Notes under the pieces: generated by a model
Databases searched by the model: none
What the model was told of the DNA's origin: nothing
What the model saw: the letters and a program-made list of their open reading frames with translations, nothing else
Shown here: piece by piece, positions 8,737 through 50,840 of the stretch
How positions within the stretch are numbered: the first letter of the stretch is position 1
Layout of the letters: the number at the start of each line of letters is the position of its first letter
NCBI RefSeq assembly: GCF_000622245.1
Contig: NZ_JHXW01000004.1
Span: 1-64,000 of the forward strand
Length of the DNA: 64,000 nt
From: Fusobacterium perfoetens ATCC 29250
Lineage (GTDB): Bacteria > Fusobacteriota > Fusobacteriia > Fusobacteriales > Fusobacteriaceae
Direction: 5' to 3'
Translations under genes and position numbers: made by a program

Positions 8737-9337
8737 AATATAGAACTGTTAATAGAAATGGCGAAGTTTCAAGAGGTTATTTGTGTAGAAGAAGAAAAGA
8801 TAAAGTAAATAAATGTACCAATACAGCTATTAGAAAAGAAATTTTAGAAACTTTAGTTATAGAAGCTTTAAAAGAAAATATCTTTACACCTACACAAATG
8901 AATATAATTTCTGATAAAGTTTATAATTATTTAAAAGAAAATTATCTAAATACACAAAAGAAAATAATAAGAATAAAAAAAGAAATAGAAAAATTACAAC
9001 TTCAAAAAGATAAAATTTTAAATTATAATTTGAATGGTGTTTTAAATAATAAAGAATATATCAAGAAAAAAACACTTTTTGACGAAGAAATTTTAAATCA
9101 TAAAGAAAATTTAATAAAATTGGAATTTGATACGAAATTCTTGAATCGTGATAAAGTCTTTAAATACCTTGAAAAACTTGCAAAAAAATAGAATCATCAG
9201 ATATGACAATTTTACAAAATATTATATTTACATTCATTGAGAAAATAATTCTCTTTAAAGATACTATTCAAATAAACTTAAGATTATTTCCTCTTGATGA
9301 AAAAATTGCTAAGGTTGGTGGAGATGACGGGAATTGA
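8737..9337 (+). pseudogene. Serine recombinase remnant (C-terminal part, frameshifted)
   Basis: The readable frame begins after a stop at 8736 and has the second half of a recombinase zinc ribbon (NGEVSRGYLCRRR...KCTN around 8757-8825), then a coiled-coil-rich tail with IKKEIEKLQLQKDK, as in large serine recombinases. The catalytic domain, the DNA-binding recombinase domain and the first zinc-ribbon cysteines are missing. The frame stops at TAG 9189-9191. Adding one A to the seven-A run just before it would rejoin a second frame (IESSDMTILQNIIFTFIEK onward) that ends at TGA 9335-9337. The tail therefore overlaps the 3' end of ssrA on the other strand. A TTG at 8781 gives a spurious 136-codon open frame. 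Confidence 0.8.
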
Positions 9338-9664
9338 ACCCGTGTCCAAAACAATAAGCACCATAAGCTTCTACAAGCTTAGTCTGCTATTAAATTTCGC
9401 AATAGTTACTCCCACAGACAGGGCTAACTAAAGCTATCCTCTAAAATGTCCCTAATTGTTTAGAGAAATCACAATAGGTAATCTGTGTATTGGTAACACC
9501 TCGAAAGTTTTCTCCCACAGAACAGAAAAAACAGAGGTGAGCTGACAACTAAGCAGCTAAAGCGTATTCGTTATTTCCATCTAAACGATGAGTTGATCTC
9601 TCACAGCGATCATCCTGGCCTGCTACCTATGACCTCATGGCCCTGTCGAAACCTTTGCATCCCC
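9316..9664 (-). ncRNA. ssrA: tmRNA (transfer-messenger RNA)
   Basis: The transcript starts GGGGAUG at 9664 and ends CAUCUCCACCA at 9316; these ends pair as the acceptor stem with an encoded CCA. The T-arm GGGTTCAATTCCC-type sequence precedes the 3' end. The tag frame runs from 9578 to the stop at 9549 and reads GNNEYALAA, giving the tag (A)GNNEYALAA after the tRNA-like alanine. The RNA rescues stalled ribosomes with SmpB. The length of about 349 nt is normal. The 3' end abuts and slightly overlaps a serine recombinase remnant. Confidence 0.97.
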
Positions 9665-41148: not shown

Positions 41149-41235
41149 AATCTTCCTCCTATTTTTATTTTATTATACAAATTTTTTTTAATTTTTAAAA
41201 GGTATAATTTTTATGATATAATATTAAAAAAATTT

Positions 41236-41296
41236 AGGAGGATAGAGTATTACATTTTATAAATTCATTTTTATAACAATACTCTTAAAAATTATG
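41236..41296 (+). promoter_or_regulatory. Leader with SD-hairpin-AUG arrangement (aminopeptidase gene)
   Basis: AGGAGG at 41236-41241 is 52 bases from the ATG at 41294. Between them AGAGTATT (41244-41251) pairs with AATACTCT (41278-41285), and inside it TTATAAA (41257-41263) pairs with TTTATAA (41270-41276). Folding the hairpin leaves about ten bases between SD and AUG, a normal spacing. An alternative is initiation at the in-frame ATT at 41249, seven bases after the SD. Confidence 0.6.
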
Positions 41297-50634: not shown

Positions 50635-50689
50635 AAAAAAATCCTCCTCAATATAAATTTTTGTACACAAAAAAATACTTTAGGAGAAT

Positions 50690-50820
50690 ATTGTGGTTAT
50701 CCTTTTGTCCTACAAATCACTCTGTAGTTTTGTAGATAACGGTTACAACTACCTCTGAGACACCCGCCGAATTTTCGATAATCTCAGTCCTCGTCAACTA
50801 TAAAAATAGTTCTGGCGCTT
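50690..50820 (-). ncRNA. glmS ribozyme riboswitch
   Basis: The minus strand reads AGCGCCAGAACU, then UAGUUGACGAGGACUGAG, UAUCGAAAAUUCGGCGGGUGUCUCAG, the conserved core of the glmS ribozyme (P1, P2, P2.1 region). Further pairs (GUUAUC/GAUAAC and CUACAAA/UUUGUAG) form the peripheral stems to about 50690. Cleavage is expected between A50819 and G50818. Glucosamine 6-phosphate acts as cofactor for self-cleavage, which lowers glmS expression. Confidence 0.96.
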
Positions 50821-50824
50821 CTAT

Positions 50825-50840
50825 TTACATTTTCTCCTCA
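50825..50840 (-). other. Start-stop mini-ORF (ATG TAA) ahead of the glmS ribozyme
   Basis: A strong SD (GAGGAGA, minus strand 50840-50834) is followed by ATGTAA at 50830-50825, about six bases before the ribozyme cleavage site. It could park a ribosome on the 5' fragment or be accidental. Confidence 0.35.

Follow-up and report, generated by a model that had tools for sequence, protein, structure and literature searches.

How can a gene be translated when its Shine-Dalgarno (SD) sequence lies far outside the normal distance from its start codon? This question is raised by an aminopeptidase P-type gene (pepP) of Fusobacterium perfoetens ATCC 29250, located in a 64,000-nucleotide stretch of contig NZ_JHXW01000004.1 (hereafter the window; the genome is termed G000). 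An earlier note pointed out that a perfect AGGAGG is separated from the ATG by 52 nt, that a two-part hairpin fills this space, and that folding would bring the two elements to about ten bases, as in phage T4. It further suggested that temperature or a ligand could switch translation, and that an in-frame ATT seven bases after the SD offers a second model with a 15-residue hydrophobic extension. We find that the arrangement described in the note is present. In contrast, the note's interpretation is supported only in part, because the spacing function is supported whereas the thermal switch is not, ligand control has no evidence, and the ATT extension is not conserved.

To examine the arrangement itself, we folded the leader and compared it with controls. 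The spacer is predicted to form one hairpin (an 8-bp outer and a 7-bp inner stem; dG −8.5 kcal/mol) that leaves 10 unpaired nucleotides (2 + 8) between SD and ATG, and no SD match of 4 nt or more lies at normal distance from this ATG. When 86 nt around the site are folded, the result is unremarkable (z −1.57, with 16 of 200 shuffles as good). However, the spacer alone is matched in energy by only 2 of 2000 dinucleotide shuffles. A single domain that leaves 5-13 nt and has an outer helix of 8 bp or more appears in 34 of 2000 shuffles and in 50 of 2000 random 52-nt pieces of the window. Among same-length stretches upstream of 347 genes with a normal SD, 94 bridge in some way and 8 bridge with equal or better energy. 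In a 96-nt fold, four of the six SD bases are predicted to be paired more often than not, with unpaired probabilities of 0.21-0.42.

Features of the pepP leader, and other RNA features, in the 64,000-nt window
Position	Strand	Feature	Basis
41217..41222	+	probable -10 box (TATAAT), 13 nt before the SD	read directly; conserved in the sister species; promoter inferred from sequence
41236..41241	+	SD AGGAGG, displaced 52 nt from the start codon	identical in the sister species
41244..41251	+	5' arm of outer stem (8 bp)	predicted fold
41257..41263	+	5' arm of inner stem (7 bp)	predicted fold
41270..41276	+	3' arm of inner stem	predicted fold
41278..41285	+	3' arm of outer stem	predicted fold
41286..41293	+	8-nt A/U-rich linker to the start codon	
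41294..43072	+	592-aa aminopeptidase P-type protein (Creatinase_N, Creatinase_N_2, Peptidase_M24, Peptidase_M24_C); ATG at 41294-41296	start supported by orthologue N-termini
41249..41293	+	open 15-codon in-frame extension from ATT, rejected as the likely start	open here, stopped in the sister species
9316-9664	-	tmRNA	search of the window against Rfam
50685-50830	-	glmS ribozyme	search of the window against Rfam

To assess whether relatives maintain the arrangement, a comparison proposed in the earlier note, we examined the leaders of the orthologues in seven species of the genus, this one included. The sister species (G005; 90% protein identity) keeps the promoter region, AGGAGGATAG, the AGGAGG and a hairpin, although its spacer is 101 nt. 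This longer spacer folds into a 16-bp outer stem that leaves 9 nt, and its energy is matched by 0 of 200 and 1 of 2000 shuffles. The counterparts of the eight outer pairs of the window still pair in the sister: two one-sided substitutions turn G-C and U-A into G-U and U-G, and an inserted G is taken up by re-pairing at the foot of the stem, whereas the interior of the spacer turns over freely. There is no two-sided substitution, and evidence for compensatory change within the pepP stem is thus weak. The two species are also close (117 of 143 four-fold sites identical), so that conservation is only modest evidence. The other five congeners have a normal SD with no room for a hairpin: 10 nt separate SD and ATG in G001 (where the SD is a G-rich AGGGGG) and G003, and 6-7 nt in G006, G004 and G002.

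To test whether the anatomy is isolated, we scanned 996 kb of G000 (889 ORFs of 90 aa or more, taken as longest ORFs; loci below are given as contig:position). This genome uses SDs: 684 of the 889 ORFs have 5 nt or more of SD at normal distance and, for SDs of 6 nt or more, 347 of 395 lie 4-9 nt from the start within a search range of about 3-14. Five ORFs had an SD match of 6 nt or more only far upstream in intergenic DNA and no match of 4 or more near any start in the first 50 codons. Four of them (pepP; a PTS EIIBC gene, C24:156641; galE, C24:330740; and a 321-aa gene, C1:119165) have a single predicted hairpin that fills the gap and leaves 9-12 nt. The fifth (C2:172090) is an antiporter whose conserved frame begins with ATA 7 nt after the SD. 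Outside the window at C2:172006 (extracted stretch L155, position 8006), this Na+/H+ exchanger-type gene shows the apparent AUA start as AAGGAGGT, 7 nt, ATA, with ATA also in G005 and G001 and ATG at the same place in G002. With weaker criteria C24:206634, a gpsA-like gene (C24:116495, named from its N-terminus) and C1:122180 join, such that six genes other than pepP show the anatomy. Equal or better bridging in matched controls was seen in 8 of 347, 0 of 382, 6 of 367 and 10 of 378 cases, and gpsA is the weakest at 29 of 413. Sister orthologues were compared for pepP, galE, C24:206634 and gpsA but not for the two C1 genes, and these four keep a hairpin, two with changed loops. The PTS gene had no match in G005. 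galE has a normal SD in G001, G003, G004 and G006, and the PTS gene has one in G002.

Not every scan favored this view. When a 4-nt match near the start was allowed, three more ORFs had a distant SD of 6 nt or more and only one of them bridges; C2:22528 and C1:88832 do not. In a first ORF scan, three ORFs with a distant SD of 6 nt or more (C24:270931, C24:339468 and C24:182064) had no single bridging hairpin of fitting span; they are absent from the later scan because spacers overlapping another ORF by more than 10 nt were dropped. A loose scan of all GGAGG sites gave 53 of 1111, no excess over the two control motifs for which counts were obtained (37 of 536 and 41 of 600), because it counts sites inside genes, and it was replaced by the ORF-based scan. 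A hairpin-centered scan of six segments of three genomes found 6 of 824 intergenic hairpins in SD-start context, not all of them convincing. In G005, C1:390648 leaves 17 nt to its ATG or 12 to a TTG and is ambiguous, as is C1:8276 in 340 kb of G023, and 220 kb of G002 gave no displaced SD of 6 nt or more.

A pattern built on these leaders revealed galE-like hairpins after GGAGG at other genes, defining what we term the TTGTAT..ATACAA RBS-hairpin family (models R1 and R2). Six were aligned, and a covariance model of the hairpin alone, lacking SD and ATG, was searched in 61 genomes of the family Fusobacteriaceae. Eighteen genomes had hits at E <= 0.1, giving 40 rows and 32 distinct loci after removal of 8 antisense duplicates of the palindrome. 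Thirty of the 32 lie between an SD and an ATG in sense; the exceptions are the two weakest hits (in G016 and G010). SD is used broadly here, since in a few the match is short (GAGG in one G069 copy, GGGGG in G075), and in G075 (L306) the ORF after the ATG is shorter than 50 codons in the stretch examined. The space left after folding is 4-13 nt in 27 of the 29 with an ORF, 15 in G074 and 20 in G072. Six of the 32 were seeds, so 24 of 26 were not selected on GGAGG, although several are repeats or orthologues of one another. A 25-member model searched in 98 genomes of the phylum Fusobacteriota gave 33 distinct loci at E <= 0.05, 31 of them in SD-ATG context. The union of both searches is 37 loci, 34 in that context, in 18 genomes, 7 genera and 2 families, including a YchF-type leader (named from the N-terminus of the gene) in another family. 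The third exception, in G052, lies in a stretch that looks coding. Three stem pairs change on both sides (0 of 500 shuffles), on an alignment fitted to the model; the same control for the first six members was weak (37 of 500 for two-sided pairs).

The genes preceded by these hairpins, among them hcp, aroA, queF, guaA and galE, are functionally unrelated. Ten proteins were scanned for domains: an IS110 transposase, eight served genes (Prismane/hcp, EPSP synthase, QueF, M42 peptidase, GidA/MnmG, GMP synthase, UDP-glucose dehydrogenase and a metallo-beta-lactamase fold) and one without a family. The window hairpin shares the anatomy of this family, being placed between SD and ATG in sense orientation, but not its sequence: model R1 gave no hit at 41244-41285 with E up to 10 under default filters. 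Common descent is possible, given a shared GAGTATT next to the SD (read by eye), but is not shown.

In one genus (G011 and G023) the SD-hairpin forms the last bases of a repeat of about 1.58 kb that has a long frame on the other strand. Two G011 copies are 99.5% identical, two of three G023 copies have lost parts, and similarity ends 1-17 nt after the hairpin. The related frame beside the G029 copy is an intact IS110 transposase by Pfam; nucleotide similarity between the two is about 68%. In the IS110-type repeats (L350:2518-4094; L351:2904-4477 of the reverse complement; L353; L310) the outward end carries SD plus hairpin directly before a host ATG, and the other end, also RBS-like, begins AATAAGGAGACCAACTATG (or near it) in four of five copies. 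Of five family loci whose ORFs were examined, L298 and L310 have such frames and L302, L306 and L319 do not; for the others only 60-100 nt of flank were read. The hairpin might belong to the IS110 element or to its preferred target.

We also searched for other origins of these hairpins. Searches for the pepP leader as a dispersed repeat or MITE in seven congeners gave no second copy among the 40 candidates scored of 65-117 per genome, and the remaining hits were short AT-rich pieces. No Rfam match covers the hairpin in the window at gathering score, or the hairpin in nine family loci at E <= 1, where two unrelated weak matches lie elsewhere. A transcription-factor operator was considered for the dispersed family, but the gap between half-sites varies, which argues, on sequence grounds alone, against a dimer site. 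A terminator was also rejected, the stem being AU-rich and not followed by a U-run (read by eye). The exact pattern was absent from viral contigs, and a phage blastn search gave two weak hits. A plasmid blastn search gave 468 records with a match, none covering 80% of the query. The one record examined, a Cetobacterium somerae plasmid, has a similar stretch (L344:1501-1558) before an annotated M81 metallopeptidase gene. The hits in G062 (L349) and G065 (L345) precede one and the same gene start, perhaps the same gene.

We therefore favor, with good though not complete confidence, the view that the pepP leader is a split ribosome binding site and one case of a recurrent class in this bacterial group. 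In this view the hairpin takes 42 nt out of the path between AGGAGG and AUG, so that the 30S subunit would pair with the SD and find the AUG about 10 nt away, as at the hairpin-free sites of G001 and G003. What the computations establish is the sequence, the predicted fold, its presence in the sister, its absence alongside a normal SD in the other congeners, and the recurrence at other genes. That the ribosome accepts the folded spacer, that start and expression depend on it, and that the hairpin arose between an existing SD and ATG are inferences from sequence and modeling.

Other explanations appear unlikely to us, but not to an equal degree. The hairpin could be an inserted or decaying palindrome that disconnected the SD, leaving AGGAGG as a relic and the gene to initiate without an SD at its A/U-rich leader. 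The AT-rich linker, the freely changing spacer interior and a sister too close to prove constraint on the SD are compatible with this possibility. However, AGGAGG is intact in both species, 10 and 9 nt remain after folding despite spacers of 52 and 101 nt, and the same anatomy occurs at many other genes. About as unlikely is a regulatory switch, whether a thermometer or a ligand or protein site. Its position would suit such a role, and stem sequences of the related family are conserved at unrelated genes, which spacing alone would not require. Conversely, the SD lies outside the stem (although weaker pairing of some SD bases elsewhere is predicted), and the modeled outer stem goes only from 97% to 84% formed between 20 and 50 °C. 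Melting would lengthen the spacing rather than expose a hidden SD. The absence of Rfam matches over the hairpin (in the window at gathering score, in nine family loci at E <= 1), the variation of the loops in length and sequence, and the unrelated gene functions also argue against a switch.

Initiation at the ATT is very unlikely. It has good spacing and an open frame here, and a probable AUA start exists at another gene of this genome and of two congeners. In the sister, however, the same ATT meets a stop after six codons and an in-frame TAG lies 33 nt before the ATG, while the N-termini of orthologues align from the ATG.

A more far-reaching possibility, which we raise tentatively and consider less likely than not, is that this bacterial order carries a portable, hairpin-tagged ribosome binding site. 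Such a short cassette (SD, palindromic stem and start-proximal linker) would spread between unrelated genes, in part as the outward-facing end of IS110-family elements, and would be tolerated or favored because the folded stem keeps SD-AUG spacing correct. Older copies such as the one at pepP would survive only as an anatomically conserved hairpin.

As far as our searches show, structure-mediated SD spacing rests on a couple of phage genes. The literature examined (PMC3014915, PMC4611024, PMC11005410, and otherwise titles and the beginnings of abstracts, with most subscription papers outside the search) includes a review of the T4 cases but no report of a dispersed bacterial class of hairpin-split ribosome binding sites. 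A recurrent chromosomal class gives dozens of natural test cases for how the 30S subunit accommodates a folded spacer. It also suggests that gene finders and RBS predictors that demand contiguous spacing can miss real starts, and points to a way for mobile elements to insert directly upstream of a gene without silencing it.

Among known systems, IS110-family elements are linked to the hairpins through the repeats of G011 and G023 and the G029 transposase, although such elements are not known to us to end in an outward RBS-hairpin. The window locus has no IS110 beside it, its neighbors being DUF1232, the aminopeptidase and an ankyrin-repeat gene. REP elements are likewise short dispersed palindromes with a fixed motif at one end, but their reported tags are GTAG and CGTC and their usual abundance is above 100 copies per genome. 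Here the foot of the stem follows the SD, at most 6 family loci per genome were found, and 34 of 37 sit between SD and ATG in sense. The closest parallel is with phage T4 genes 38 and 25, in which a structure shortens SD-AUG distances from 22 to 5 nt and from 27 to 11 nt, respectively (PMC3014915). As at pepP, a strong SD lies too far from the AUG and a structure between them leaves functional spacing, which for pepP is a prediction. The gene 25 structure is, like that of pepP, present in close relatives and absent in distant ones. The cases described here differ from those of T4 in that they concern chromosomal bacterial genes, have longer spacers (52 and 101 nt at pepP), and recur at many genes, with one hairpin family dispersed across genera.
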